From Roseimaritima ulvae (lineage in GTDB: Bacteria; Planctomycetota; Planctomycetia; Pirellulales; Pirellulaceae): a stretch of DNA of 64,000 nt. Every line of letters starts with the position of its first letter. The first letter of the stretch is position 1. The translations under genes and the position numbers were made by a program. The stretch is from positions 3,286,001 to 3,350,000 of the forward strand of contig NZ_CP042914.1 of the NCBI RefSeq assembly GCF_008065135.1, given 5' to 3'. Below, in pieces: positions 4,833-61,674 of this stretch. Under the pieces are notes generated by a model. It had not been told where the DNA came from. It worked only from the letters and a program-made list of their open reading frames with translations, and ran no database searches.

Positions 4833-4915
4833 GCTTGGCTCATACAGTTTTCGGACAACGACTCGGAGGCAGACTGGTCGATTTCGGGACTGGCCGATTT
4901 TGTTACGGCGTTGAT

Positions 4916-26973: not shown

Positions 26974-27056
26974 GGAGGATAAGCGAATTGGTGAGCGGCC
27001 TCACTGGAACTGAGGTACCCCGCAAGGGGCTGCGGGTTCGAGTCCCGTGTCCTCCG
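26974..27056 (+). tRNA. tRNA-Ser(GGA), left attachment site of the prophage
   Basis: 83-nt class II tRNA: acceptor GGAGGAT/GTCCTCC with a final G-U pair and discriminator G, anticodon stem CCTCA/TGAGG with loop CTGGAAC (anticodon GGA, reads UCC), long variable arm CCCC-GCAA-GGGG, and T arm GCGGG-TTCGAGT-CCCGT. CCA is not encoded. The integrase gene begins seven bases after it in convergent orientation. The D arm is poorly paired, so exact ends may shift by a base. Confidence 0.9.
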
Positions 27057-27062
27057 CTATTT

Positions 27063-28268
27063 TTAACCGTGTTTTGCCGCGTTTTCAGGCTCATCCTGTT
27101 GGTTCTCTGCGAACAGCGAATCGAGCATGTCACCCAAAACGGCACCCTCGACGTTCCACAGGGTGTCCGCGGTACGGTCGGCGTTTTCGCCGACGTAATA
27201 TTTAAGCGTCGTCTCGATCGAGTGATGACGCATCAGCTCTTTCAGAATCAACGGCATCACCTTGGGTGCCCAGCGGGCGCCAAAGCTGCGACGAAAGTCG
27301 TGAGCCGTGGCGTGCTGGACTTCCCCACCGGCGAGGTGCCTTGTGATCACGCCGGCCTTCCTGCCCGCGGCACTAATCCGCTTGCTGACCGTCTTCTCAC
27401 TGATCGAATCGCCACGACTGAGCGTCCAACGAAAGACCGGCCCGCGACGCTGCTTGCGCGGAACATTTCGCAGCAACGCGACGAAATCGGGTGCCATCGG
27501 AATCGTGCGATTCGTAAACCCCTTTTCGGCCTCCGCATCAATCACGATTCGCGGCCGCCGTTCGTCCAGCCGGTCCACGTAGTGACAACCCGGCGATGGC
27601 TCCCAGTGGAAGACGAAGGTTTCGGCAATGCGAAATCCGCTCCGCCAAAGCCCTTCCAGGTTCCAAGCCCATCGCTTGGCATACGCGTCGCCAACAATCT
27701 TCGGCAACACCAAAGCGATCTTCTCCGCCTCTTCGCGAGACAGGGCCCGACCGCGACTCTTCGTACCGGTCGGCACGCGATGGAGTGCCGGCGGGTTCGG
27801 TACCGAACCGATCAAATCCACTTTCTTGGCCCATGCGAGCGCAGCCATCAGGTGATCGCGATACGCCTGAATCGTGGCTTCGCTCTTGCCTTCTTCGCGC
27901 AGCCGCAAGGCGAATCGCGAAAAGGCATTCGCGTCCAATTCGTCGATCGTTTCCACGCGGCAAAGCTGCTCCAGCCGATTGGCCGCAGTACTAAACGCGG
28001 TCCGGGTGCGGACACCGAGTCCGGTCAGGTGCTCGGCATCGTACCGCTTGCGGAACTCAGCCCAGCCATACAGTTCGCGATCACCAGTCTCCTCGGCCAA
28101 AGCAACGATTTTTCTGGCGGCTATTTCCGCCTCGCGCTTTCGTCGACAACCGGTCGATTCCTCTCGCCAGCGATGTCGCCCAGCGAGCATGTATCGACAT
28201 ACCCAATAGGCCCGCCCTTTCCTGCGGGTCAATTTCCACTTTGTTTCGGGTCGCTTCCTTCTTCGCAT
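27063..28268 (-). CDS. Prophage tyrosine recombinase (integrase)
   Basis: 401 residues. Catalyses integration and excision. An N-terminal arm-binding part, a SAM-like core-binding domain (about 95-180) and a catalytic domain with GLWRSGFRI (first Arg), NRTIPM near the Lys strand, HDFRRSFG (HxxR) and RHHSIETTLKYYV (second His and nucleophile Tyr). It converges on tRNA-Ser(GGA) with seven bases between. AGGAG lies ten bases upstream of ATG 28268. Planctomycete integrases of this size are common in integrated elements. Confidence 0.93.
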   Translation of the reverse strand: MRRRKRPETKWKLTRRKGRAYWVCRYMLAGRHRWREESTGCRRKREAEIAARKIVALAEETGDRELYGWAEFRKRYDAEHLTGLGVRTRTAFSTAANRLEQLCRVETIDELDANAFSRFALRLREEGKSEATIQAYRDHLMAALAWAKKVDLIGSVPNPPALHRVPTGTKSRGRALSREEAEKIALVLPKIVGDAYAKRWAWNLEGLWRSGFRIAETFVFHWEPSPGCHYVDRLDERRPRIVIDAEAEKGFTNRTIPMAPDFVALLRNVPRKQRRGPVFRWTLSRGDSISEKTVSKRISAAGRKAGVITRHLAGGEVQHATAHDFRRSFGARWAPKVMPLILKELMRHHSIETTLKYYVGENADRTADTLWNVEGAVLGDMLDSLFAENQQDEPENAAKHG

Positions 28269-33503: not shown

Positions 33504-35663
33504 CTACCCATAGACCCCCGACCCGGCAGCCCCGGTCCAGGCGGCGTTTGCGGTCACGCTTGTGGGAGGATCAGTGGCCAGAGACACTGACATCAGCATG
33601 GCAACCACCGGGTCGATGCGTGAAGTACTCGCGTCTTTTACAGGGTATCGGTTTCCAACTCGGTCCGGTTTCGCAAGCACGGCGCCTTCAATGGCTGCAT
33701 CAAGTAGCGGGTTTCCGCCATGTCGCAGTTCGCCATTGTGCAGCAGCTCCACTAAGCGTTTCGTTGGCGGCCCCATGCTCAGAGCCCCCTGTCGGTGCGG
33801 GATACATTCGAGCCCACCGGGATCCAGGTACGGCATCACCAAGAACTGAGAATAGGCCGGGTCATACGCCAGCGATAAGATTTTAAACATCTTGGCAATC
33901 TTCAAAATGTCCTCGCCCACCGTGTCGTACTGAATTGCCCGTGATTCGAAACACCGGCAGAAACCGAACTCACCGAAATTGGACAGCTTTGACAGTCGCC
34001 TGTACGGGACGTTTTCGCGCTCCTCGCGTTTCTCAAACATTTCGTCTGCAACCCATGCGAGTCCCAGCAAGTCGATGCGGGGGGCGACCGACGACTTGTG
34101 GTAGCGTTCGCCCTTGGAGGGGTTCCAGGAAGGGAAAGCGAGCCACAGCGCCGTCAGGTCGGAAGTAAAGGAAATGTCGAGCCCGGCGTAACACTCCCGC
34201 TCTAACAGATCACGCCAACTGAATTTCGACTCGTAGCGATTCCACTCAGCGTGAGTGATCCAGCGGTCCTTGGTCGAACCAGAAACAATGTTCAGCGTCA
34301 GCTGCTTGTACTCGGCTTCCTCTTCCGGATTGTCGAGGGCATTCTCGCGGTCGTCTTGCAATTCCTCCATTTGGCATGTCGATCCCAGCGAAGGGTTGGC
34401 GATCCGAATGGCATGGTCGGTCGTCCAGTCCGTCAGCACCTGGGCTTTGGCGCCAACCGGGATTTCGAGATTGCTTTTCGTTGCGATGAAACGCTGACCG
34501 CGTTTCGCATATTCGCTGAGTTCAACCTCGTAAGTTTTCTTGGGGTTTTTCGGATCGACGAATTTCACCTTCTCGCCAGCCGGCAACGGCGAAAACAGTG
34601 CAGGTACAACGATACGATTCGCCTTTTCCTTTTTGAGTTGTTCAACGGAAACGTGGAACGGTTCGGCTGAAGCAATCATGACCTGGTCGCGCACCCTGAT
34701 TCGTTCGTTCTTTGCGACCAGCATCGCTTTGGAGCGTTCTTCGCCCCAGATGCTTTTCATGGTTTCCCCGGCCGTCGTGATTACGATCCGGATCGGTTGA
34801 CGCCGTGCCCGACCGGCGCGTCTCAGCACCCGCATCATCTTTCGGTTTCGCTGGACGTGAAGCTCGTCGAAGATGATGGCATGGGCGTTTTGTCCTTCAC
34901 TACGGAAAGCGTCCGAGGAAATCACTTCGTACAAACTTCCCGATCGCCAGTGGATCAAACGCTTTTTGCTCTCGATGCATTCGATCTCCTCTTCCTCGGC
35001 GAGCACCGCCTGAGCTTTAACGAAGTCCCTCGCCTCATCGAACACCATGCTCGCTTGCTTGCGGTCCGCCGCGGCCCCGAGAATGCGGGCTTTTCGCTCG
35101 CGATCGGCGCACAGCAAATAAACGGCGATCGCCCCGAGAAGGGTTGTTTTCCCCTGTTTTTTGGCAATTTCCCAGTAGGCTTGGCGATACCTTCGATAGC
35201 CAGAATGAAGTGACCGCCAACCAAATAGTTCCTGCACCCGAATGCGTTGCCACGGCAACAATAAGAACGGGTCACCCGTCCACGGGTCCATGGTGTGACA
35301 GATGAATTTTTCGATGAAGCGGACCGTGTGATCCCCGCGGCCGGCATGTGCTACTTCTTCTTCGTCAACCTCTTCCCATTCGCCACCCGCAAACCGCAAC
35401 CAGCGACCAGCCATCCAGTACAGAGGCCGGCCGTCGTGGTCTCGGCTCAGGTCGTAGTAGTAACCACGCTTGACGGCCTCAACGTCTTGCGGACTGTGGA
35501 TCCAATCTGCCCAGCCTTGATCGATCGCCGCTTTAATGCGTTTCGATCCCTTCGCAAACGCAAAGAGTTCGTTGGCGTCAGGAGGGTAGTACCAGTCTAC
35601 CTCGTACGCAGCGGCAAGCACGGGCGACAGCGGCATATCCGCATCTGCAACGGATGCGATCAC
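33504..35663 (-). CDS. terL: Phage terminase large subunit
   Basis: 719 residues from GTG 35663, which overlaps the end of the small subunit gene by four bases. It packages DNA into proheads. The N-terminal ATPase has a KKQGKTTLLGA P-loop-like Walker A and a Walker B strand HAIIFDELHVQRNR; the C-terminal part is the RNase H-like nuclease with GLDISFTSDLTALWL, in which the Asp is the metal ligand, and a later SRIDPVVA. The family is Terminase_1-like. It is larger than most (500-600), with an Arg/Lys-rich insertion between the ATPase and nuclease. Confidence 0.93.
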   Translation of the reverse strand: MIASVADADMPLSPVLAAAYEVDWYYPPDANELFAFAKGSKRIKAAIDQGWADWIHSPQDVEAVKRGYYYDLSRDHDGRPLYWMAGRWLRFAGGEWEEVDEEEVAHAGRGDHTVRFIEKFICHTMDPWTGDPFLLLPWQRIRVQELFGWRSLHSGYRRYRQAYWEIAKKQGKTTLLGAIAVYLLCADRERKARILGAAADRKQASMVFDEARDFVKAQAVLAEEEEIECIESKKRLIHWRSGSLYEVISSDAFRSEGQNAHAIIFDELHVQRNRKMMRVLRRAGRARRQPIRIVITTAGETMKSIWGEERSKAMLVAKNERIRVRDQVMIASAEPFHVSVEQLKKEKANRIVVPALFSPLPAGEKVKFVDPKNPKKTYEVELSEYAKRGQRFIATKSNLEIPVGAKAQVLTDWTTDHAIRIANPSLGSTCQMEELQDDRENALDNPEEEAEYKQLTLNIVSGSTKDRWITHAEWNRYESKFSWRDLLERECYAGLDISFTSDLTALWLAFPSWNPSKGERYHKSSVAPRIDLLGLAWVADEMFEKREERENVPYRRLSKLSNFGEFGFCRCFESRAIQYDTVGEDILKIAKMFKILSLAYDPAYSQFLVMPYLDPGGLECIPHRQGALSMGPPTKRLVELLHNGELRHGGNPLLDAAIEGAVLAKPDRVGNRYPVKDASTSRIDPVVAMLMSVSLATDPPTSVTANAAWTGAAGSGVYG

Positions 35664-36577
35664 GCTTCATCACCGATATAGATTCGAGTCGTGCGGCGTT
35701 TGGTTTCCGATGGCACAAGCAGTCGACGTCGTGCCGATGGCGTCATACCGAAATCCTTCCAGACATCGCTCGCCAGATCGCTGCTTTTGCGAAACAGAAG
35801 CGACAAAGGGTTCTCGATCGCCCGGCCGGTGGTCTTGCCATCCAGCACCGCAATGGGACTTTTCTGCTGCAGTCGATAAGCCCTCACGCTCATCGAATAG
35901 GCAAAACATCCCACCACGATGGGCGGTCGGTAAATTCCATTGGCCAGCCCCACGGAATCCAGTGCATAAATCATGTCGTGCCAATGCCGAATCCCTTCTT
36001 TACCGAGAATCGATGGGGCGGCTCCAAGCTCAGCGTGGGGTAGCACGTCGCCCGTCTGGGATTCTTCCTCATCCAAGTCCGTACGATTGCTTGGGTTCCC
36101 CCGCATCTTGTGGATCTCACTGGGGATTGCCGGCCGCCCTTTTTCGCTGTGAGTAAGCCAAACGGTGCGAGGCGAGAAGCCAAACTGCCGCGAAAGGTTC
36201 AGCAACTGCAGGCCGTAACGAATCCCGATGATGGCCAACGTCGAAGGACGCGGATTGCCGCGGAGCGTCACGCCCACCAGCGGCGCCGGTTTTCCGGGCG
36301 TGCGTTCCATCTCACAACACAGCTGCTTGACCGTCCGGCAGAAGATCCCCCAGGTTCGGCAGTAAGTTTCGAGTGCCTGGACGTCCAGCAGCGTCGATCG
36401 GTCCAGCGTCAGCAGCATCGGAGCAACACGTCGCCACTCGGCCACTGCGTCCGGCTCCAAACCGTCTGGCATCTCCAGCGCGACGGAGTCGGCGGCAAGT
36501 CCATGAACCAGTCGCGTCTGGCCGCCAGATTCAGCGCTACGCCGCTCGTCTGACTTCTTTTTGCGCCCTCGCTTCAT
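35660..36577 (-). CDS. terS: Phage terminase small subunit, P27-like, apparently duplicated
   Basis: 305 residues, about double the usual 150. The first half has a P27-type core (LDRSTLLDVQALETYCRTWG, then GIRYGLQLLNLSRQFGFSPR), and the second half repeats the layout, with a matching loop and a C-terminal MTPSARRRLLVPS. It binds pac or cos DNA and recruits the large subunit. The first copy ends in FGFSPRTV, the second in FGMTPSARRRL, as in the typical P27 ending. A P27 domain fused in tandem is unusual. Confidence 0.8.
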   Translation of the reverse strand: MKRGRKKKSDERRSAESGGQTRLVHGLAADSVALEMPDGLEPDAVAEWRRVAPMLLTLDRSTLLDVQALETYCRTWGIFCRTVKQLCCEMERTPGKPAPLVGVTLRGNPRPSTLAIIGIRYGLQLLNLSRQFGFSPRTVWLTHSEKGRPAIPSEIHKMRGNPSNRTDLDEEESQTGDVLPHAELGAAPSILGKEGIRHWHDMIYALDSVGLANGIYRPPIVVGCFAYSMSVRAYRLQQKSPIAVLDGKTTGRAIENPLSLLFRKSSDLASDVWKDFGMTPSARRRLLVPSETKRRTTRIYIGDEA

Positions 36578-37271: not shown

Positions 37272-37697
37272 TTAAAACGGTACCGGTTCTGCGGTGTTGT
37301 TCAACTCGGTCAGTGCATCGGCCAACGCCTGCCGGCGTGTCAGCAGACGCTCACACGGATGGAACAGGAACTCAAATAAGCGATCCTCGCCGCCGTCGCC
37401 ACTGTATTCGGGGAACTCGGCCGCCACGCGTTCGTGAATGATGTCGTATCGCGGGATCGCCGTTTGGTCGCCCTGTTCGTATCGTCGACCATCACGTTTG
37501 GCAAACCCATGTCGCCAGAATCCCCAGCAGCCCCGCGAACCACCGCAGCGGACCTGCCAGGCAAGTTGGCGGATCTCTCGATCGCGCCCCTTCGTTTCGC
37601 GGTCGATCTCCTGCAGGTAGTCGGCCAGATTTTGCACGTCTCGCCAAGCGATGCCCACGACGCGGGCATCGCGTTTCAGTTCGTCAATCGTACTCAT
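37272..37697 (-). CDS. Prophage protein of unknown function
   Basis: 141 residues, highly charged, with a Trp/Cys/Gly-rich patch (CGGSRGCWGFWRHGFA) and a Leu-rich helix near the end. It overlaps the methyltransferase gene by four bases (ATGA) and ends three bases before the ASCH gene, so it is in one operon with them. No family recognised. Confidence 0.6.
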   Translation of the reverse strand: MSTIDELKRDARVVGIAWRDVQNLADYLQEIDRETKGRDREIRQLAWQVRCGGSRGCWGFWRHGFAKRDGRRYEQGDQTAIPRYDIIHERVAAEFPEYSGDGGEDRLFEFLFHPCERLLTRRQALADALTELNNTAEPVPF

Positions 37698-39166
37698 TCG
37701 GCTGGCTCCTCGATCACCACAATTCGCGTGGCGACTTTGGTAGGCCTCACCGCGTCGGGGCCATCGAAGGCGTTGTCGGGCAGCTTGAATGAGTAACCAT
37801 CGACCTCATCGAGCCATTCCCGGAATTCCTTTGCCTTGCGATCGCGGCGATAGAACAGCCCTTCGCTGACGATGGCCACCAGTCGGCCGCCGGGCTCCAA
37901 GAAGTCCGCCGCGGCCATCACGTGCTCGGCGTCCTGCCCGTTTTCGAAGGGCGGATTCATCAGGATGCGGTCAAACAGTCCGACGTCACAGGGATCGATC
38001 TCGAGGAAGTCGTGGACACCGTCCTCACTGAGCGCCTGGCAGCGGGGGTAGTCGATCGACGTGCCGATAAACTCGCGGCATTCGGCGTTGATCTCACACC
38101 AGCGAATGTCGATCGAGCCCATGGCGTATCGAATCGTCGGCAGGGGATCGGCGACCAGAGCACGGATGATGTGCCCCATGCCGGCCGACGGTTCAAGAAT
38201 TCGATCACCAGGCTGAATGTCAGCCCGCCGGAGCATTTCAGCGATCACGCTATCGGGCGTGGGGAAGAACCCCGGACGTGAGCACAACCGCAGTTCGTTT
38301 TCTCGGCTGGTCAGTTGTTCGGCGGCCTCGACTTCTTCGGCACGTCGAGCCGCGTCCGCATCCCCGGCGAGGAACCGTCGCAGCGTTTGAGCCGTCTCGC
38401 TGTTGTCTCGGTACTCATCGGTGCGGCGAGCCGAATAGTAGCCGGACGTGTCGACGCCCTTCGAAACCATCCGCAGAATCGCATACCGCTGTCGAACGGC
38501 TTTGAGCGACTCGGGGATGGTCCCCGCTTCCCAAGCGTCTGCCAGCGCGTGCATGGCGTGCTGAGTCTTCAGCATGTCCTGGCCTTCGAATTGTCGCTGG
38601 ATGTAGTGCCAATTACGGCGAGCAGTCGGACGTTGGGTCATCGGTCGCAGTTTGTGTTCAATCTGCTTGGTGAGCACATCGGCGGATCGCCGCAGTTGGG
38701 CCGCGATGCGCTGAGCATCGGGTTTGCGTGGCGTGGGGGCCTGGTTGTCGTCGCCATCGGGAGCGACCGGCAGTGGCTGGCCTGCATCGTCGCTGCCGAT
38801 CTCAAACGTCTGGGAGATGTGAAACACAACGGCGCGGCGGCCGACAGTTCGCTTCGCCTTCTTGCCGTCGGGCGTGGCTGGCTTTGTGTCTGCCGGTTTC
38901 GATTCGTCGACGGGCACACGGACAAAGATTTTCACTCCGCGTTCACCACGCCGAACCTGCCGGCCCTTGGCTTGCCATGCGGGATAAGTGAAAACGTTCT
39001 CGCGTGGTCTGATGTCTTCAGCCTTCAGGCCGCGAGCCACAAAGCCGTCGATGATCGGTTGGTAGTTCGCGTGGCTGTCATTTTCGACGGCTCGGGCGAG
39101 TGCCTCGGCGGCCTGAGCAGATCGTTCGGACTTGGTTCGTCGCTTTTTGCGCGTGGCGGTAGCCAT
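37694..39166 (-). CDS. ArdC-like domain fused to N6-adenine DNA methyltransferase
   Basis: 490 residues. Residues 1-135 resemble the ArdC N-terminal ssDNA-binding domain of antirestriction proteins (FTYPAWQAKGRQVRRGERGVK, FHISQTFEI). A helical linker follows. The C-terminal half is a gamma-class SAM methyltransferase with the cofactor-binding LEPSAGMGHII at about 323-333 and the catalytic NPPF at about 402-405. The enzyme likely methylates adenine in phage DNA and may shield it from restriction. AGGAACCAT lies just before the start, the same leader as the AAA+ gene at 41634. Confidence 0.87.
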   Translation of the reverse strand: MATATRKKRRTKSERSAQAAEALARAVENDSHANYQPIIDGFVARGLKAEDIRPRENVFTYPAWQAKGRQVRRGERGVKIFVRVPVDESKPADTKPATPDGKKAKRTVGRRAVVFHISQTFEIGSDDAGQPLPVAPDGDDNQAPTPRKPDAQRIAAQLRRSADVLTKQIEHKLRPMTQRPTARRNWHYIQRQFEGQDMLKTQHAMHALADAWEAGTIPESLKAVRQRYAILRMVSKGVDTSGYYSARRTDEYRDNSETAQTLRRFLAGDADAARRAEEVEAAEQLTSRENELRLCSRPGFFPTPDSVIAEMLRRADIQPGDRILEPSAGMGHIIRALVADPLPTIRYAMGSIDIRWCEINAECREFIGTSIDYPRCQALSEDGVHDFLEIDPCDVGLFDRILMNPPFENGQDAEHVMAAADFLEPGGRLVAIVSEGLFYRRDRKAKEFREWLDEVDGYSFKLPDNAFDGPDAVRPTKVATRIVVIEEPAE

Positions 39167-40512: not shown

Positions 40513-41634
40513 TTAGCCGGTGATGCGTTGTCGCTCATCGTCAGACCAGCCGGCGAACAACTGGTTGTCGATGTCGTCAAGCGACCAGTCGTATAGCGTT
40601 TTCATTTCGTAGGCGTCTCGCATGAAGCGGCTGCTGATCGTCCGTTCCAGTCGCGATTCGATCACCCGTTCCCGGTACATCAGCAGTCGGTTGCGGAGCG
40701 AATCGTCGGGGCACAGTGCCGCTTCCACGTCGGCGTCGTATTCCATCGGCACGGTGCCGATGCGGAAGCGGTCCAGCGTCGCATCGTCCAACTCGTTGCG
40801 TCCCACGTAGAGGCGATCGGCACCGCGGCCGAAGGTGTTCGCCGCCGCAATGCAAACGAAGTCAGGGTGGCGTTTAGCAGTTGGGTTCTCCGGGCGGTTC
40901 GCGACGGTGACGAACCCGTTTGCCAATGCCGCGTTGATCACGAGCAGGACGTTGGGATCGGCGGCGTCGATTTCATCGAACAGGAACACGCCGCCGTTTT
41001 CAAAGCAATCCAGGAACTCGGTACCGACAAACTGAAATTGTCCGTTCTCACCGCGTGGAACCAGCCGGCCGAGCAGCTGGGCTTCGCTCATTCCGGCCGA
41101 GCAACTGATCGACGCAAACCGCAGCTCGAGCGCTTCGGCGACTTGGCCGCCGAGATGACTTTTTCCGCAGCCCGACGGGCCGGGCAAGAATACAGGTTTG
41201 CGGGCGGCGGCCAATTGCAGCACCCGAGGGAATACGCTGTGGGTTTTGCCTTCGATGCGGATCAAGCGGTCATCGGGCTGGCGGATTTCAATCGACTCCG
41301 CTGCGGGTCGGTTTTCCAGTTCGGTGATTCGCTTCACCAGGTCGGCAATCAATTGGCTCGAAACGTCCGAGGCGGCCGGCGTCGCGGGTGACGGCGTCGT
41401 CGGTTGATTCGGTTTCCCGGCCGACGTGCAATCCGCATGCTTCCAGCGATTGCGTTTGCCGGGGCGGGAGTAGATTTCGATCTTGTCGCCCTGTTCGATC
41501 ATTTTTTTGCAGGCGGGGCACTTTGCACGATAGCGGGACGTTCCGTAGCCGGTATCGCCGGGGCGACGACCTTGGCAGAGGACTTCGGTTTCGTTGACGT
41601 TTTCGGGGTTCGTCGGTAGCATGATGTCGCTCAT
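40513..41634 (-). CDS. AAA+ ATPase (MoxR/CobS-like) with zinc-finger N-terminus
   Basis: 373 residues. Residues 35-70 have a Cys/His zinc-finger-like segment (CPACKKMIEQGDKIEIY, then WKHADC) close in form to PARP-type fingers. The AAA+ domain has Walker A GPSGCGKSH near 151-158, Walker B VFLFDEIDAAD near 213, sensor 1 CIAAANTFGRGADR and Arg finger region LDDATLDRFRIG. It resembles the dynein-related AAA_5 family that drives vWA partners, here the gene downstream. Start at 41634, preceded by AGGAACCAT. Confidence 0.8.
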   Translation of the reverse strand: MSDIMLPTNPENVNETEVLCQGRRPGDTGYGTSRYRAKCPACKKMIEQGDKIEIYSRPGKRNRWKHADCTSAGKPNQPTTPSPATPAASDVSSQLIADLVKRITELENRPAAESIEIRQPDDRLIRIEGKTHSVFPRVLQLAAARKPVFLPGPSGCGKSHLGGQVAEALELRFASISCSAGMSEAQLLGRLVPRGENGQFQFVGTEFLDCFENGGVFLFDEIDAADPNVLLVINAALANGFVTVANRPENPTAKRHPDFVCIAAANTFGRGADRLYVGRNELDDATLDRFRIGTVPMEYDADVEAALCPDDSLRNRLLMYRERVIESRLERTISSRFMRDAYEMKTLYDWSLDDIDNQLFAGWSDDERQRITG

Positions 41635-42516: not shown

Positions 42517-44661
42517 ATGAAGATAGATATTCACACGCATACAAAAAAGTGCAAGACAGGTGATGCCCATACTAGAGAAGTCTCCGCCGAGGTGTTTTGC
42601 CAGACCATCCTGTCTTCGGATGTAGGGATCGTTGCGATCACTAATCACAACGTATTCGACCGAGAGCAATTTTTCGAAATTCAAGGCGGCCTTTCACCGG
42701 AAGCACAAGTTTGGCCTGGGATAGAGTTAGATGTCTTGGAAAATGGCGCAAGAGGGCACCTGCTAGTAATTGTTTCGCCGACGAAGACGCATGAATTTTC
42801 AGAAGTGGTCGATCAGATCACCCGCTCTTTTACCCCCGATACATTCACGGCTACAATTGCCGAAGTTATAGAAAACTTTGATGCACTTAGCCCACTCTAC
42901 GTAGCGCACTACAAACAGAAGAAGCCCAACATCTCTGACGACGCATTGGAGAAGTTAGTGGCGAATACCGAAAATCCCGGGCGGGTTATCAAAGAGGTAA
43001 CGAACTCAATATCGGCCGGGATCTACATTTCGCATGGACATGCATCGATCTACGGGTCCGATGTTCAGGACTGGGCAACCTATGAAAAACTTTCACGCGA
43101 ACTTCCAGATCTTCGACTTCCTGTCGATAGTTTTGAGCATTTTTGTCTGCTACTGGAAAAAGATCCGACGACAATCAATACGGTTCTGGATAGAAAAACA
43201 TCTGAAGACTTGTCGTTGCGGCCGTTTGACGACAATTCTTGCCTAGATCTGAAAGTTTACAACGACATTAACGTCTTTTTTGGCCCAAAGGGGACCGGGA
43301 AGTCCTGCATACTTAAGGCAATTGCAAAGCACTACTCCACACACGGAACCGACGCCAGAGTCTACGAGTCAGCAAGTGACCGGTTAGACCAAATTTTCGA
43401 CACGAAAGGCAAAGATCTTTCGATTAACCTCAATAATCACGGCATCAACTACTGCTCGAACGAAATTGAACATTTGCGCAGCGTCGTCGAAGTAAATGTT
43501 ACAAATGTCAGCAAGTATGTCTCCTTCTTTAAAGCAAAGAGCACAAACAAAAACGCAAAGAAACTGCTTCTCAAAGACATTACCCCAGAGGAGGAGGGTA
43601 CGTTAAAACGCGAGTTTATAGACTTCAATGATGCTGCAGTAGCGACCGAAAAATTTCTTGAGTTTCTATCTGAAAATTCTTCAGTAAAAAAAGAGCTTGA
43701 CGAAGATGAGCTCGAGGATGTTGTTCGGATCCTAACCCGGCTGAATCAGCGGTTACATGCAAGGGATTGGACCAGTTTCTCTCGATGGAAGGAGGTTTGG
43801 TTTCTCAACTGTGCAATTGCAACTTTTCGAAAAGAGGTAGAGCGCAAGACTGGAATACCGGCCAAACCAACCACAACAGGATTTCGCGAATACGCATTGA
43901 ATCGGGTCGAAATCGAAATCAATGCAGCCGAGATTATTAGAAATGCAGATACCAAAATTCCAATTCAAACTGAAAGTCTTGGGAGTCTCGGTTCCAACAA
44001 AGGAAGCTTGGAGTTTCGGACTGAATTTAAATTTCAGGATGGGGGTATTACCTCCGGTGCCTTGTCCAGCCTGACTGGAGTCAAGAAGGGCACGCAGAAA
44101 AAGTTCATTAAACTCGTGCGGGCAATTCTTGCTAACGCGTATTCTGACGAACTGTTTCATCATATTGCCGCACTCAATGCAACGGAGGACGTCGAAGAAG
44201 TTCACACTGTCTATGAGTTGCTGTTGTTTGAAAGATACTTCGCATTAGACGGGCAGCGGTATACGCCCTCTAGCGGAGAGGCTTCAATGGTTATGCTGCA
44301 GAGGGAATTAGGGGAGGACAAGGAAATATACATACTGGACGAACCGGAGAGAAGTTTGGGGAACGAATACATCAATGATGTGATTGTACCTCTCGTGAAG
44401 GAACACGCTCGCGTCGGAAAAAAGGTTTTCATTTCTACCCATGATGCCAATATCGCGGTGCGAACACTACCCTACAGCTCGGTCTATCGCTGCCATGGCG
44501 CCTCGGGGTACAGCACTTACTGCGGTAACCCCTTCTCAAATAATCTTGTAGATTTAAACAATGCCAACGATCACCTGGACTGGAAACAGATCAGCATGAA
44601 AACTCTTGAAGGTGGCGAGGAAGCTTTTGGAGAGCGAGGGAAAATTTATGGAAATTATTAA
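42517..44661 (+). CDS. PHP-phosphoesterase/ABC-type ATPase fusion, candidate defence effector
   Basis: 714 residues. Residues 1-220 form a PHP domain: HTHTK at 6-10, ITNHN in place of TDHD, a GIEL Glu, and SHGHAS later; these ligands would hold metals for a phosphoesterase or nuclease. From about 252 comes an ABC/SMC-type ATPase with Walker A FFGPKGTGKS, an SSGEAS signature-like motif near 585, Walker B IYILDEPE near 604 and H-loop STHD near 640. The central part is helical. PHP plus AAA fusions such as the TrlF family recur near defence genes. Lower GC and the opposite strand mark it as cargo. No ribosome site is seen before ATG 42517. A 99-residue gene overlaps its end. Confidence 0.85.
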   Translation: MKIDIHTHTKKCKTGDAHTREVSAEVFCQTILSSDVGIVAITNHNVFDREQFFEIQGGLSPEAQVWPGIELDVLENGARGHLLVIVSPTKTHEFSEVVDQITRSFTPDTFTATIAEVIENFDALSPLYVAHYKQKKPNISDDALEKLVANTENPGRVIKEVTNSISAGIYISHGHASIYGSDVQDWATYEKLSRELPDLRLPVDSFEHFCLLLEKDPTTINTVLDRKTSEDLSLRPFDDNSCLDLKVYNDINVFFGPKGTGKSCILKAIAKHYSTHGTDARVYESASDRLDQIFDTKGKDLSINLNNHGINYCSNEIEHLRSVVEVNVTNVSKYVSFFKAKSTNKNAKKLLLKDITPEEEGTLKREFIDFNDAAVATEKFLEFLSENSSVKKELDEDELEDVVRILTRLNQRLHARDWTSFSRWKEVWFLNCAIATFRKEVERKTGIPAKPTTTGFREYALNRVEIEINAAEIIRNADTKIPIQTESLGSLGSNKGSLEFRTEFKFQDGGITSGALSSLTGVKKGTQKKFIKLVRAILANAYSDELFHHIAALNATEDVEEVHTVYELLLFERYFALDGQRYTPSSGEASMVMLQRELGEDKEIYILDEPERSLGNEYINDVIVPLVKEHARVGKKVFISTHDANIAVRTLPYSSVYRCHGASGYSTYCGNPFSNNLVDLNNANDHLDWKQISMKTLEGGEEAFGERGKIYGNY

Positions 44662-44947
44662 GGCTCGCGTGGAATCGGTGGATGCTGCGTACTTCATTGA
44701 AATTGCGGTGGGCTCCGATTCGATCCGGATTCCGATGTCGGAAGACAAGCCGATTGAGGTGAAGAGCGCTTTCAACAAGCTTATCGCACGAATAAAAGTG
44801 GGCGAGTTTCAAATTGAACTCGAGAAAGTTGGGGACGACTTGTTCTCACAGGTTGCGAAGGAATACGTTACACAGCTAAACAGTGAAATTAGCGAGGTGT
44901 TTGGCGAGATGCAACAGAAAGGTTTAGTGCAAAGAGATTCAGCGTAG
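44648..44947 (+). CDS. Small partner of the PHP-ATPase, unknown
   Basis: 99 residues from ATG 44648, with GAGGG upstream. It overlaps the PHP-ATPase gene by 14 bases, so translation is likely coupled. It is acidic and helical in the second half (ISEVFGEMQQKGLVQRD). No family recognised. Its tight linkage suggests it is the regulator or subunit of a two-gene system. Confidence 0.7.
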   Translation: MEIIKARVESVDAAYFIEIAVGSDSIRIPMSEDKPIEVKSAFNKLIARIKVGEFQIELEKVGDDLFSQVAKEYVTQLNSEISEVFGEMQQKGLVQRDSA

Positions 44948-46793: not shown

Positions 46794-47933
46794 CTAACTG
46801 GCTGTGTCTGCTGCCGGCACGTATTCAAACGCGACCGTGGCACGATTTAAGGCGCCGACGTAGCGATCCGAGTTGTTCTTTCCCGTTCTGAAGGTTGCCG
46901 TCGGCGGCTTGCCGTGACGGCTGACGGAATGAACTCTCCACCGTGGAGAACGTTGTCGCTTCGCGATCATCGCGGGATTTCCCGTGGTGGCTGCAACACG
47001 TTTGCCTGACGCGGCAAACCGGGCCGCCGTCCAGTCGCTGAGCGTCGAACCTATTCCCACTCCCTGAAAGTCAGGCAGCACGACGGTACGGGTGAGTCTT
47101 ACAAAATTCTTCCGGCCGAGCATCGGACCGCCCGCGCAAAACGCTACCGGCTGATCGTCGATGAAGGCGACGTAGGCAGCGATGCAAGGTCCGAGGCTAC
47201 CGCTTAAATAGTGATGACGCTTAAACAGGGGCCATGCTGATTTTGGTTTGACCCGTCGGATACCGAGTTCGATGCAGGGTCGCCTAAGGCACCCCCTTGC
47301 GAGCTTGCCGCTCGCCATGTCTAGCACCCAGTCCGGCGTCAACCATTCTAGGATGTCGTAGTGACACGTTACCGCAACGAACTTCTTCGCGACAATGCCC
47401 TTACGGATGGACTTCGCCACCGCCGCTGAACCGATCTTCGCGACTGTACGATCGACCACACTGGTGAACTCGTCAAACGCAATCAGCTCGTGATTCGACA
47501 ACAGAGCCCGAGCCAGGTCGCAGCGGAACTTTTGCCCGTTGCTCAGTACGTGATACGGTCGAACCCAAGCCGGTACCGTTGAGAACCCCACAGCCGTCAG
47601 CATCTGCGTGATTTCTTTGACGTCGTTCGATTTGTCGAATCCGTCGAGCAACGATTTACCACGCGGCCAGCGAGCTCCCTCCCACAGCTGCTTGCCGTAC
47701 GCTTCACGCGCGACGGTACTCTTACCGCTTCCTGAAGGTCCCACGATGGCGCCGATTTGCCAATCCTCCGTAGGTTTCGGGACTTGGACCTTGAACGTTT
47801 CCGCAGAACGCTCGGCTACCGATACATCGAACATCGACGCTACCGATTCGACGCGAAACGTCTGGTCAATCTCACAGTTTACCGATACCTCGATGCGGTC
47901 GGTCGCCAGCGTTACAGGGTCACTACTTTGCAT
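46794..47933 (-). CDS. ABC-ATPase/GNAT fusion, Mom-like DNA modification protein
   Basis: 379 residues. The first half is an ABC ATPase with Walker A GPSGSGKST at 65-73, signature LSNGQ at 130-134, Walker B LIAFDE at 150-155 and His191. The second half (about 225-372) is a GNAT-type acyltransferase with WPLFKRHHYLSG and motif A VVLPDFQGVGIGSTLSDW. Mu Mom, which modifies adenine in phage DNA, has a GNAT fold, and ATPase-linked versions next to ParB-like and HNH genes fit that idea. No transmembrane helices, so it is not a transporter. It overlaps the ParB-like gene by 22 bases. Modification of phage DNA is inferred, not shown. Confidence 0.75.
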   Translation of the reverse strand: MQSSDPVTLATDRIEVSVNCEIDQTFRVESVASMFDVSVAERSAETFKVQVPKPTEDWQIGAIVGPSGSGKSTVAREAYGKQLWEGARWPRGKSLLDGFDKSNDVKEITQMLTAVGFSTVPAWVRPYHVLSNGQKFRCDLARALLSNHELIAFDEFTSVVDRTVAKIGSAAVAKSIRKGIVAKKFVAVTCHYDILEWLTPDWVLDMASGKLARGCLRRPCIELGIRRVKPKSAWPLFKRHHYLSGSLGPCIAAYVAFIDDQPVAFCAGGPMLGRKNFVRLTRTVVLPDFQGVGIGSTLSDWTAARFAASGKRVAATTGNPAMIAKRQRSPRWRVHSVSRHGKPPTATFRTGKNNSDRYVGALNRATVAFEYVPAADTAS

Positions 47934-52994: not shown

Positions 52995-55900
52995 TTAGAT
53001 GTCGGACCCCGACAATGCGGGAATTTTATCGACCAAGACGCGAATCCCATCATTGATCGAAGTCAGCAACCGGTTCGACTCTTTCCCTTCGGTGCCATCG
53101 TTTTGAAGTGCAGGCACTACTTCCGTATGGATGGTGACCTCCCGCCTGGGAGGTTGTCGCATCGGTTGGTTAACTTTGGCCTCTCGGGCAGCTTGCTGGC
53201 GCTCGAGTAGAAGTTGCTGGCGGCGGGCAGCCACCGACCGGACCATCTCTGCCGAACCGAATTTCACTGCGTCGATGCCATCAACCGTTCCCAGAGTGAG
53301 CGGTTTTTCAAACTCTTCTCGCACCTGTTTCATCAGCTTCATTGCATCCACCATCGTGACCATGCCGCGTTGCAGCCAACCACGGATCTCCTGAATCTTT
53401 TCGGCGCGTTTTTCTTCAGGTGTTTTTGTCGATTCCAAAGCCTGTTGGATGCGGGCCCGCTCAGCTTCCTCTTTCCTAAGCTTCGCGAGTTCCGCTTGCA
53501 ATTTCTTGACCTGAGCGATTTCCTCGGTACTTGCACCGAGAGCCATCATGCGATGAATACGCTTTTGTTCGGCACTCATGCCGTAGGTGGCGACTTCCTC
53601 CTTCATCGTGTCGATCAGTTTTTTTGTCTGTTCGACGCGATCCCGAGCTGCGTTGGCTTGATCGTCCCTCGCTTTTGCGACGGCCTCAGCAGCCGTCTCG
53701 GCAGCTTCACGCTCTGCCGCCAATCGTGAAAGCTCCTTCTGTGCAGCTTGGTCGGCCTCGTCCGGTCCGTTGACTCCCTGGGCTGAGTCCAGCGGTTCAC
53801 GCATCCGACGAAGTGACTCCAGGTATTTTTCGCCGGCTGATTGGGGTGCCATAAACTTTTCGCTCAGCCCGTCGATGATGGTGTCCGTTTCATCCAGAAA
53901 CGCTTTGTTTTCTCGTTTGAATTCCTCAATTTCGCCAAGGACGGCCAACCGGGTCTGTCCGCTGACTAATCCCAGCGAATAGAGCCAATCATGAACGTAC
54001 GCCTTCCCCACAAGAATCATCATGTTGACCGAAGCAAGCGGATTCATAAGTGCCTTCACACCCAGCGACGCCAGATCCCAGCCCATCCCGAAGACTTCCA
54101 GTAGATCCAAGGTCTTTGCAAAGGCAGTGTTCAGCATACCCACTTCCTCTTTCGTGCCCGCCATAGAATCAATAAACGGCGCCGCCAGCTCGCTGGCCCC
54201 ATCGGAAAATAGTGACCAGCTGGCCTTCAACCGTTCCAACGCGGCCGTCAGTGCCGGGATCTGCTTGTCCGCAACTTCCTGGGTGGCGTTTCCCGCGCTC
54301 CGCAGCTCTTCCTCGTATTTGCGAATCTGATCACTCGTACCGATCAACTGAGTGGTGAACGCCATCGACTTGTCACTGAAGCCGAGTTCGAGCAGCAATT
54401 CCTTCTTGGCCTGGTCGGACAGTCCCACCATGCGTTTTTCAAGATCCGTGATGATGTCAGCTAGTTTTCGCATCTCCCCGCCGGCATCGAACACTGCGAC
54501 TTTGTTTTTTGCCCAGGCGTCAGCGTTCTTAATCGCCTGCGTCTGCAGGTCGCGAAGTACGATTGCGATCGCGGTACCGGCCACCTGGGCTTTCAAACCT
54601 TGGTCAGCGTAAACGGCCAGAACGGACACCATTTCCTCGATGTCTTTGCCAACCAGTCGCGCTGCGGGGCCGGCCTTGTTGGTCAATGCCAAGCTGAATT
54701 CTTCAACGGATGCATTCGCCAACTGGGCCCCACGAACCAGCACATCCGTCACTCGGGCCAGACCGGCCAAGTTCTTCGTGGCATCGTCCGAACGCAAACC
54801 GAGAGCTGATTGAGCGTCCGTCGCCAGATCCGTTGCCTGGGCCAAGTCAAACATCCCGGCTTGAGCGAATTTCGCCACCTGCGGCATCGCCTTCAGCGCA
54901 CCGGCCGCATCCATTCCCGCTGAGAACAAGTAGTAATAGGCTTGCCCAGCCTCGGCGGTGGAGAATTTAGTTTGGTAGGCCACCTGACGGGCCGTCAGCT
55001 CCATCTCTTTGCGGATCTGGGGGCTGACATCCTTGGTGATCGCTAGACTGCTGGCCATGGACTGTTCAAACGCTTCGTTGGTCGTGATCAGGCTGCGGGT
55101 CGCCATCACGGCACCGAAGATCCCCACGCTGTACCCGGCAAACGACAACGGAGGCATCCGCATTCCCAACATCGCCCGGCCCGTCCGCCGCAACATCGAT
55201 TCCGTTCGCGGCAGCATCGCGTTCAACTCACGAACGCGGCGGTTGTAGTTTCCCTGCGACAGATAGCCTCGCCGCAGCATTTCGTTCAGCTTTCGCAGCT
55301 CCGCAATGTGACGTGCTTCGGCACTGACCATACGGCTGGTGATTGCGGCCGCCTCCTGTTGAAGCTTTCTCCGCCGTTCTTCCTCGCGTCGCACGGCGGG
55401 CAGTTCACGTTTCAGTTGTTGCAGATGGCGAAGGTACTGCTGCCGAGTGATGTCGCCGCGTTTTAGTGCCGACCGTGCCTCTAAAACGTTTTTCCGGTAC
55501 CGCTCCGTCGCGGTCGTGACGCCGTGGATAATTTGGCGAGCGGCCAACAACTGTTTGTTTCTCGCCGCCTCGGCAGCGATCACCGACGGCATCTGTGCCA
55601 CCAGTTCCTTGCGGTAGCGGTTGTATTCGGCTTGCGTCAACGTGCCAGCCTTCAGCGCTTCGCGAGCCTCCTTGGCTTCGCGTGCCAGTTTTCGTTCCGT
55701 GGTCATCGTCTTTTCACGGATCGAAGCGGCCTTTTGTTCGGCCTTGATCGTCGCCTCCCGGGCCGCCACATTTTTGGGTTGCTCGGCGTACAATGCCGCC
55801 TCGGCTCGGCGGTACGTTTCCACGCTGATCGTGTTTTTGTTGAGCAAGCTCCGCAGCTGACTCAGTTGCTCGCCGAATTTCTCTTGCGGCGTGGTCATCT

Positions 55901-56009
55901 GCTCGGTGACCTTGCGAGCGGCAGCCAACTCCCGGCGCGTGACGGTCAAACCCTCGGTAAATTTGCGAGGGTCGGCGACCAGTTTCCAAACGGTGGGGCC
56001 GATGGCCAT
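52995..56009 (-). CDS. Tail tape measure protein, TP901 type
   Basis: 1004 residues. It sets tail length. Long charged coiled coil at about 20-280 (EELRSAGNATQEVADKQIPA later), then the TP901 core with EQSMASSLAITKDVS, ARQVAYQTKFSTAEAGQAYY and NLAGLARVTDVLVRGAQLAN, a hydrophobic part (GMGWDLASLGVKALMNP), and a second coiled coil at the end. It is directly downstream of the tail-assembly chaperone genes, the expected order. Confidence 0.93.
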   Translation of the reverse strand: MAIGPTVWKLVADPRKFTEGLTVTRRELAAARKVTEQMTTPQEKFGEQLSQLRSLLNKNTISVETYRRAEAALYAEQPKNVAAREATIKAEQKAASIREKTMTTERKLAREAKEAREALKAGTLTQAEYNRYRKELVAQMPSVIAAEAARNKQLLAARQIIHGVTTATERYRKNVLEARSALKRGDITRQQYLRHLQQLKRELPAVRREEERRRKLQQEAAAITSRMVSAEARHIAELRKLNEMLRRGYLSQGNYNRRVRELNAMLPRTESMLRRTGRAMLGMRMPPLSFAGYSVGIFGAVMATRSLITTNEAFEQSMASSLAITKDVSPQIRKEMELTARQVAYQTKFSTAEAGQAYYYLFSAGMDAAGALKAMPQVAKFAQAGMFDLAQATDLATDAQSALGLRSDDATKNLAGLARVTDVLVRGAQLANASVEEFSLALTNKAGPAARLVGKDIEEMVSVLAVYADQGLKAQVAGTAIAIVLRDLQTQAIKNADAWAKNKVAVFDAGGEMRKLADIITDLEKRMVGLSDQAKKELLLELGFSDKSMAFTTQLIGTSDQIRKYEEELRSAGNATQEVADKQIPALTAALERLKASWSLFSDGASELAAPFIDSMAGTKEEVGMLNTAFAKTLDLLEVFGMGWDLASLGVKALMNPLASVNMMILVGKAYVHDWLYSLGLVSGQTRLAVLGEIEEFKRENKAFLDETDTIIDGLSEKFMAPQSAGEKYLESLRRMREPLDSAQGVNGPDEADQAAQKELSRLAAEREAAETAAEAVAKARDDQANAARDRVEQTKKLIDTMKEEVATYGMSAEQKRIHRMMALGASTEEIAQVKKLQAELAKLRKEEAERARIQQALESTKTPEEKRAEKIQEIRGWLQRGMVTMVDAMKLMKQVREEFEKPLTLGTVDGIDAVKFGSAEMVRSVAARRQQLLLERQQAAREAKVNQPMRQPPRREVTIHTEVVPALQNDGTEGKESNRLLTSINDGIRVLVDKIPALSGSDI

Positions 56010-60171: not shown

Positions 60172-61617
60172 CTAGCTGCCCCAGGTCACCCCGGTCATAA
60201 CGGCGATCGATTCCGGATAGCGGGTGTTAAAATCGTGCTCAGCGATGACGCGGATAACCGTTTCGTCATTGCTGAACGCCGACTGCATATCGACGCCATC
60301 CCAATAGGCGGCTTCGCTGGAAGCTTCCATCCGGAACCGCGGATCTTCGGCGATCACCTGGTCCTCTGCATTCAGGAAGTAGATCTCCGATTCGTCCGTA
60401 CCCACGCCCAGGTTCGCTGGCACCATCGTGGTCTTGAAGGCCGGAAAACCCTTCAGCCGGTTCTGAGACAGTTCGGGATAAACAAAATTCCCGTTGCCAT
60501 CGCGAAGCGAAGCTAGAAACGCCCACGTCCGCGGGTTCATCAACCAGCCGGGCGATGTGATGTCGACGTTCGCCATCTCGAGCGCCAGCACCAACGAAGT
60601 CAGAGCCGTTTCGATGTCCTGCAACGTCACGCCGCCCGGGGCCGCAATCACATTGGCCGGGGCGACCAGATACCGCAATCCCATCGGCGTATCGCTCGAC
60701 CCGTCGCTGCGAATGAACGCGCCGTTCTCCGCCTGAGCGATCGCGCGGAACAAGTCGTTCCGGATCAAGCCATCCGCCGCCGGCATGCTCCATGCCAGCA
60801 GGTCGTTCGTTACCGGCACAATCGCCGACAGTTTCTTCGCCGACCAGCTGACGCTGCCCGTGGTCATCCCGGTAACGCCAATCGGTCCGCGTTCACCGGT
60901 GTAGGTGGCCGTGGTCCCGCTATTGATCTTCGGCAGCTTCAGCTTGCCACTGATCAGCGGGCCGGTGGTGACGCCCATCTGGCGAATGGGGGTACGCGGC
61001 CGCAGGTTTTCGATCACCAGCGGCACATACGGATCGGGCAGCAACGCACCGCCTTTCGCGACGTCGCCGGCTTCCATCAGCCGAGCGTTCAGCTCGTCGC
61101 CGTGGTCATTCGCCAGCTCGATCATGTGGCTGCGGGTGCCGTTGCTGTTGGCGATGATGCGGATGAAGTTCGCCAAGCCGTGGCTCAGTTGAGCCTGGTT
61201 GGGCTCGGCGATCACGATGCGGCTTTCCGGCTCCGTGGTCCCCGGCTGCGGCTGGGCGCCGTGCGGCACGTGGCGGCCCGTCGACTGCTGCAGCCGTTCG
61301 GTTTGGGTATTGTGTTCGGTGCGGGAATCAAACCGTTGCAGCAGCTCGGCGAGCTTGTCGTTCTCTTTGCGGATTTCATCTGAGCGGATGCGAGCCAATT
61401 TTTCCTGATCGGCGATCTGGCCGGGCAGGTCATCGATTTCGGCTCGTTGTTCGGCGGAAAGTTTTTTCGGCTCCAGCTTGGACAGTTCGTCCAGCCGTTC
61501 GGTCAGCTTGTCCGACTCGGTGAACGCAGCTTCGCGTTCATCGGAAAGTTTGGCGATATGTCGCCGCAGGTCACCAATTTTCTCGGCCAACCCAGCGACT
61601 GCGATCGTAGCAGGCAT
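60172..61617 (-). CDS. HK97-type major capsid protein
   Basis: 481 residues from ATG 61617, with AGGAG 11 bases upstream. Residues 1-105 are a coiled coil (LRRHIAKLSDEREAAFTESD) of the scaffold kind that a prohead protease removes. The rest has HK97-fold strands, among them GGALLPDPYVPLVIENL, AKKLSAIVPVTNDLLAWS, TDTPMGLRYLVAP-like loop and WDGVDMQSAFSNDETVIRV at the end. No protease gene is found in the window, so processing would need one from outside or be absent. Confidence 0.88.
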   Translation of the reverse strand: MPATIAVAGLAEKIGDLRRHIAKLSDEREAAFTESDKLTERLDELSKLEPKKLSAEQRAEIDDLPGQIADQEKLARIRSDEIRKENDKLAELLQRFDSRTEHNTQTERLQQSTGRHVPHGAQPQPGTTEPESRIVIAEPNQAQLSHGLANFIRIIANSNGTRSHMIELANDHGDELNARLMEAGDVAKGGALLPDPYVPLVIENLRPRTPIRQMGVTTGPLISGKLKLPKINSGTTATYTGERGPIGVTGMTTGSVSWSAKKLSAIVPVTNDLLAWSMPAADGLIRNDLFRAIAQAENGAFIRSDGSSDTPMGLRYLVAPANVIAAPGGVTLQDIETALTSLVLALEMANVDITSPGWLMNPRTWAFLASLRDGNGNFVYPELSQNRLKGFPAFKTTMVPANLGVGTDESEIYFLNAEDQVIAEDPRFRMEASSEAAYWDGVDMQSAFSNDETVIRVIAEHDFNTRYPESIAVMTGVTWGS

Positions 61618-61674
61618 ACTTGAAGAAACTCCTAGGCCGGCAGCGTGGCGCAAGGAATTTCAGAGTCGCAGCCC

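Follow-up and report, generated by a model that had tools for sequence, protein, structure and literature searches.

Closest described systems

PADLOC-DB 2.0.0 lists a two-gene candidate, PDC-M49, consisting of PDC-M49A and PDC-M49B. The prefix PDC is expanded as phage defense candidate in a passage of PMC11514479, and searches of the main texts in an open library found no paper that names PDC-M49. Ppl of E. coli is, in the account given by a review (PMC12904381), a single-gene PHP 3'-5' ssDNA exonuclease kept inactive by NTPs bound to its PHP and NTPase domains; the trigger described there is nucleotide loss together with 3'-OH ends. Lamassu/ABC-3C systems are described in PMC10586767 as having a separate LmuA effector, an SMC-like LmuB and often LmuC. 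These are the systems against which we compare a pair of genes from Roseimaritima ulvae, found in a stretch of 64,000 nucleotides that is called the window in what follows.

A two-gene cassette within a prophage

An earlier note, made from the letters of the window, had described a two-gene cassette as prophage cargo. Its frames were re-read and the cassette is real, with genes A and B, their lengths and their overlap as given in Table 1. Gene B is a true gene by its pattern of divergence: against 4 relatives, outside the overlap, mismatches run at 0.58-0.68 in third codon positions and at 0.12-0.25 in first and second positions. The cargo setting is likewise borne out. Prophage genes on the minus strand flank the plus-strand cassette on either side, so the pair does lie opposite to the late genes, and its GC content of 0.460, compared with 0.581 in the rest of the window, is the lowest among 1232 stretches of equal length taken by stepping along the window every 50 bases. 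Promoter and terminator scans around the cassette found no excess over shuffled sequence, and the repeats around it are short.

Table 1. Features of the window discussed in the text, with coordinates counted from its first base
Feature	Position	Strand	Remarks
tRNA-Ser(gga)	26974-27057		
phage integrase	27063-28268		adjoins tRNA-Ser(gga)
likely prophage integration site	26974-28268		tRNA-Ser(gga) beside integrase
terminase large subunit	33504-35663	-	prophage gene
terminase small subunit	35660-36577	-	prophage gene
methyltransferase-like gene	37694-39166		
AAA gene	40513-41634		just left of cassette
gene A	42517-44661	+	ATG at 42517, stop at 44661, 714 aa; PHP phosphoesterase + ABC/SMC-type ATPase
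A end / B start overlap	44648-44661	+	14 bases
gene B	44648-44947	+	ATG at 44648, stop at 44947, 99 aa; small partner, no known family
ABC-ATPase fused to GNAT acetyltransferase	46794-47933		second gene downstream of cassette
tape measure	52995-56009	-	prophage gene
major head protein	60172-61653	-	prophage gene

The tRNA-Ser region has no exact repeat of at least 14 bases elsewhere in the window or in the 19.5 kb downstream, and this exact-repeat search over the window and those 19.5 kb did not locate the second prophage end. Searching by way of the terminase gave no relatives of the prophage among the viral contigs; of 60 genomes searched at E <= 1e-60, the 59 besides the window's own had none either. 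Several neighbors of the cassette can be placed individually. The AAA gene has a relative at positions 805-1671 of viral contig L090 (50%), the sole viral contig that it matches. The ATPase-acetyltransferase fusion matches the uncharacterized phage family phrog_11143 at 1.8e-102. The methyltransferase-like gene has a weak match to the MADS protein mad2 at 5.4e-14, and also matches phage methylase and anti-restriction families.

Gene A joins a PHP domain to an ABC/SMC-type ATPase

The gene A product divides into an N-terminal PHP part, approximately residues 1-230, and an ABC/SMC-type ATPase, approximately residues 230-714. Pfam recognizes the second of these as ABC_tran PF00005 with 31.5 bits against a cut-off of 25, and does not report PHP up to E = 1; we infer the PHP domain from matches to the PDC-M49A and TrlF models and from a fold match to the PHP domain of RNase AM. 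The latter is the best PDB match of the structure model (E = 3.5e-5 over 151 columns with 18% identity), the model having a mean pLDDT of 80.7. When the PHP part was compared by sequence with solved structures, only chance matches came up. For the ATPase part the nearest solved structures by sequence are AriA of PARIS at 6.8e-8 and PtuA of retron I-A at 8.2e-4. By fold, it matches the heads of RecN, SMC and retron I-A at E < 0.001 and AriA at 1.0e-3, and it also resembles Rad50 heads, the fold matches superposing poorly over the full length with an rmsd mostly above 20. The model is weak (pLDDT < 50) in the PHP metal loop at residues 163-182 and at the C-terminus, residues 699-714, and since that loop is poorly modeled the PHP active site is uncertain.

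Conservation bears on both parts. In 31 of 31 aligned rows, the PHP ligand-type residues H6, H8, H44, E70, H81, H131, H173 and D182 are invariant, as are the ATPase residues K262, S585, G587, D608, E609 and H642, which we take to be the Walker A lysine (K262), the signature (S585, G587), the Walker B pair (D608, E609) and the H-loop (H642). D16 is replaced by E in one of the 31 rows. Residue 184, presumably the place of the last canonical PHP metal-binding histidine, is His in 16 rows, Gln in 11 with the window among them, and something else in 4; that the window has Gln here, and that no more than 16 of the 31 rows have His, counts against the function proposed below. The motif TNHN is found in 9 of 10 aligned A-type proteins, including PDC-M49A and TrlF, the S. 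equorum copy reading TNHD; PHP proteins commonly have Asp where TNHN has Asn. A is probably an enzyme that cuts nucleic acids or nucleotides, fused to an ATPase.

Gene B is a small partner of no known family

The model of B has a mean pLDDT of 87.4 and is predicted to run beta-beta-beta-alpha-beta-alpha with a long last helix. Window B matches no family of Pfam or NCBIfam up to E = 1, and has no significant match in the PDB. Its conservation is sparse, with 11 invariant columns in 32 rows. A reading of B as an RNase H-like domain was considered and dropped. Among the best 50 of 1130 Foldseek matches, E is 0.02 or worse and TM is below 0.45; these are mostly integrase cores, with an rmsd mostly above 13, and TsaB-like proteins, and the likeness amounts to just the common strand-strand-strand-helix-strand-helix order.

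The best PADLOC match of window B is LmuC at 0.0018, and 10 of 32 B proteins match that model, the best at 7.1e-5. This would suit a shortened relative of Lamassu/ABC-3C in which B is the middle component LmuC and the effector has been fused to the ATPase. We regard such an origin as highly improbable: the LmuC matches are weak and are outnumbered by those to the unrelated REase_II model, which takes 14 of the 32 B proteins with a best value of 4.1e-4, no LmuB appears among the 25 listed of the 40 PADLOC families matched by A, and the pair has no separate effector gene.

A and B are inherited together

Patterns built from A only, run over genome contigs, found 34 loci at 46-74% identity, L034 and L035 sharing an assembly. 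In all 32 of these loci that can be assessed, B lies directly after A, L028 and L050 being left out of the count because A is cut near the contig end. Where the 3' end of A and the B start are both readable, in 31 of the genome-contig loci and a Photobacterium plasmid, the overlap is 14 bases in 28 of 32 rows and 11 bases in 3, with a 2-base gap in the remaining one; for L033-L035 the B start was taken at the ATG that aligns with the other rows. Pairwise distances of A and B correlate with r = 0.94 over 31 rows, a value reached in 0 of 2000 permutations. In a set of 392 Planctomycetota genomes, 2 carry A (E <= 1e-20), and B (E <= 0.001) is confined to those same two, of which one is the window's own. 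The absence of conserved co-occurrence, which the earlier note had named as what would speak against a joint system, is therefore the opposite of what is seen. That B acts on A is suggested by how strictly the two are paired, by their coupled start and by their having evolved in parallel.

A small overlapping partner, strictly paired and carried on plasmids and prophages, is also what a toxin-antitoxin module would look like, with A as a toxic nuclease or phosphatase, B as its antitoxin, the pair serving to retain the prophage or plasmid, and defense as a by-product. At one locus, L030, the A frame is broken and B is kept, as expected if B alone is harmless. Antitoxin genes often come first, whereas B comes after A, and decay goes both ways, as locus L056, described below, retains only a fragment of B, and the 3.1 kb examined there contain no A. 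All 31 rows retain the ATPase motif residues that were checked, which fits a regulated machine over a simple toxin. We think a toxin-antitoxin module unlikely, and continue to prefer B as a subunit that acts on A.

The distribution of the pair is patchy. Searching 98 genomes near the window's own, we find no A orthologue in the 97 others; in 12 of these, portions of the ATPase half are weakly matched, with E no better than 6.7e-5. Of 295 genomes from the order to which the Shewanella locus belongs, 2 have a PDC-M49A match at 1e-30; one is the seed, and the other carries B as well. In a search of 397 genomes from the family to which the Flavobacterium genome belongs, B is present in the seed genome and as a decayed copy (L056, positions 1510-1602), a scrap of about 31 residues with stops. 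Two further weak B matches in that 397-genome search were rejected as chance, lying inside 427-aa frames that read as argininosuccinate lyase. The tree of A has one supported nine-row set made up of the window, 3 Planctomycetota, 4 Pseudomonadota and 1 ungrouped row, and it tracks phyla closely, with 7 label changes where the minimum possible is 6. Rarity and scattered presence suggest that the pair is mobile, and wide recent transfer between phyla is not supported by the tree.

Plasmid, viral and defense-gene settings

The cassette is found in prophage, viral-contig and plasmid settings in several phyla. The Photobacterium plasmid (L014) carries the pair with an Eco57I-type methylase and a BsuBI/PstI endonuclease annotated as adjoining. 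In the viral contigs, a query with the single A protein found no match and a query with the alignment found two. The first (L091) has A at 48% and B with a 14-base overlap, among genes that, read from their sequence, are a putative methylase, a helicase and others that are defense-like. The second (L092) has A at 35% identity together with B, placed between a putative ParB-methyltransferase gene with a further gene and terminase genes directly after, these labels again being read from the sequence. The window B profile matches frames of the two contigs at 6.7e-13. Neither window A nor the Rhizobium PDC-M49A matched anything in a set of 50,697 phage records.

The position beside putative terminase genes in L092, and the resemblance of the ATPase half to RecN, SMC and Rad50 heads, raise the question of whether the pair is a helper for the phage's own DNA metabolism, a RecN/Rad50/SbcC-like head with a nuclease that serves replication or packaging and is not directed against rivals. 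We judge this to be a distinctly slim prospect, more so than a toxin-antitoxin role, given that 34 loci come from genome contigs as against 2 from viral contigs (by different searches), that the phage records hold no match, and that in the window the late genes occupy the other strand and the pair differs in GC content. A defense against other viruses is the reading that we keep.

The earlier note had also placed proteins of this type near defense genes, and here the result is divided. A wide set, composed of 135 neighbors of 26 loci (9 of 35 rows having been dropped for short flanks or cut copies, and frames having been called mechanically), matches 122 PADLOC families at 1e-15, a count of redundant models rather than of 122 proteins, and the 25 of these 122 that are listed include restriction enzymes, methylases, Drt8, PD-T7-3 and PDC-S35. 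That richness does not persist when genomes are matched: the pair's 48 neighbors in 8 genomes match 2 PADLOC families, and 124 control proteins from 20 random stretches of the same 8 genomes match 7, so this test shows no defense enrichment. Because the neighbors there match PADLOC no more often than random stretches do, we count this against the defense reading.

Proposed function

From the gene and homology evidence, the pair is probably a defense against other viruses. In favor of this are the pairing, the patchy distribution, the mobile settings, the homology of A to PDC-M49A with its layout, the AriA/PtuA-like ATPase, and Ppl as a relative that works in a like manner. The specific form that we favor, with somewhat better than even confidence, is that of a prophage-borne antiviral system of two subunits, in which the ATPase would gate the PHP hydrolase and B would be an obligate regulatory subunit. 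The ABC/SMC-type ATPase heads of A may oligomerize and sense a change brought by infection, such as a drop in the nucleotide pool, the presence of DNA ends or a phage protein; in response they would gate the PHP domain. The freed PHP phosphoesterase would then degrade nucleic acid or nucleotides, and the infection would be stopped. B, presumably made by translational coupling, would bind A in a fixed ratio and either hold the PHP domain off or pass the signal on. Such a scheme carries the logic of Ppl over to A, with B added as a putative fixed subunit. Intact pairs are present in cultured environmental species, namely Shewanella gaetbuli (L033) and Flavobacterium (L039, L041 and L042), which makes the role of the small subunit directly testable.

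Comparison with known systems

The nearest listed candidate is PDC-M49. The earlier note knew of no described system with this small partner, a statement that needs correction to the extent that PADLOC-DB lists a pair of the same layout, though window B has no match to PDC-M49B up to E = 1. Window A aligns over nearly its whole length with the models PDLC04680 (1.4e-37, 127.6 bits) and PDLC04678 (3e-22). Four listed PDC-M49 members score 650-862 bits compared with those 127.6 bits, PADLOC's own score limits standing outside this comparison. Matches to PDC-M49A at 1e-195 to 7e-260 come from the A proteins of the Rhizobium, Phaeobacter, S. capitis and E. faecalis plasmids, the E. faecalis protein being scored as its annotated 558-aa piece, and the B proteins of the same four match PDC-M49B at 1e-22 to 4e-31.

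The two pairs share their layout. In PDC-M49, as in the window, A is followed by B on the same strand with an overlap wherever A is whole, of 20 bases in L063 and L064 and 38 bases in L061 compared with 14 in the window; in the E. faecalis copy (L065), the annotated A ends before B. The pair of L066, a locus outside the PADLOC run, overlaps by 23 bases. In either pair A carries its PHP domain at the N-terminus, joined to an ABC ATPase, and is of similar length, and B has about 98-102 aa. Window A and the Rhizobium PDC-M49A are 23% identical over 745 columns, which is nearly full length, and PDC-M49A and window A have a like C-terminal motif, LE(G/A)G..(A/T)(F/Y).ER...Y.

The small partners are another matter. 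PDC-M49B is absent from the six PADLOC families matched by any of the 32 B proteins. Homology of B to PDC-M49B was put forward by a mixed profile at 62.7% probability, and was rejected; that profile included B proteins that group with the window's, namely those of S. epidermidis, S. aureus and E. faecium. With those three removed the score is 11.5 compared with up to 19.0 in 60 column-shuffled controls, and a wider profile scores 13.0 compared with up to 19.6 in 60 controls. As these scores lie below the controls, we claim no homology between the two, and in our reading of the sequence they appear to have a like order of strands and helices. The three plasmid B proteins, of which those from S. 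epidermidis and S. aureus are identical, match the window B profile at 1e-12 to 4e-14 in a search of 12 sequences. A further form of the pair is seen on these enterococcal and staphylococcal plasmids (L015, L016 and L062), where A is annotated as short, in pieces or absent, and the B-like gene is intact. The match patterns of PDC-M49B and of window-type B, with the profile comparison, indicate at least 2 branches whose partners are not detectably related. By sequence comparison, then, the window pair is a distant sister of PDC-M49, and PDC-M49 represents a single branch within a broader family of cassettes that pair a PHP-ATPase with a small partner.

TrlF resembles A at both ends. The PHP start and the ATPase end align in part, and the ITNHN and C-terminal motifs are alike; against NF045780, the model of the TrlF family AAA-like ATPase, A reaches 82.9 bits where the curated cut-off is 350. 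TrlF is longer, the model having 944 positions and the Yersinia ruckeri copy 875 aa, compared with 714 for A, and the Yersinia ruckeri gene overlaps a different, larger partner annotated as RNA-binding. On that plasmid (L067, positions 3962-7716) the overlap of the TrlF-family ATPase gene with the RNA-binding domain gene is 22 bases. One may imagine a single PHP-ATPase core with interchangeable small subunits, in which B, PDC-M49B and the larger partner of TrlF would be different regulators at the same gene-end overlap, each retuning the sensing, and the window clade would count as a system type of its own, with a distinct sensor, on prophages and plasmids of several phyla. We offer this as a tentative and somewhat doubtful extension.

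AriA (PARIS) and PtuA (Septu/retron I-A) are both the nearest solved ATPase sequences to A and among its fold matches. Their effectors are separate proteins with other folds, and these systems are not known to have a PHP domain. As far as the composition described for Lamassu/ABC-3C goes, the pair departs from it in having two genes only, with the effector domain fused to the ATPase and a weak LmuC match. Ppl, compared by description only, is like A in uniting a PHP hydrolase and an NTPase in one protein, and differs, on the review's account of it as a single gene, from A with its B partner in 32 of 32 assessable loci. The pair is also relevant to a question familiar from Ppl: how a PHP nuclease is turned on by an ABC-type ATPase.
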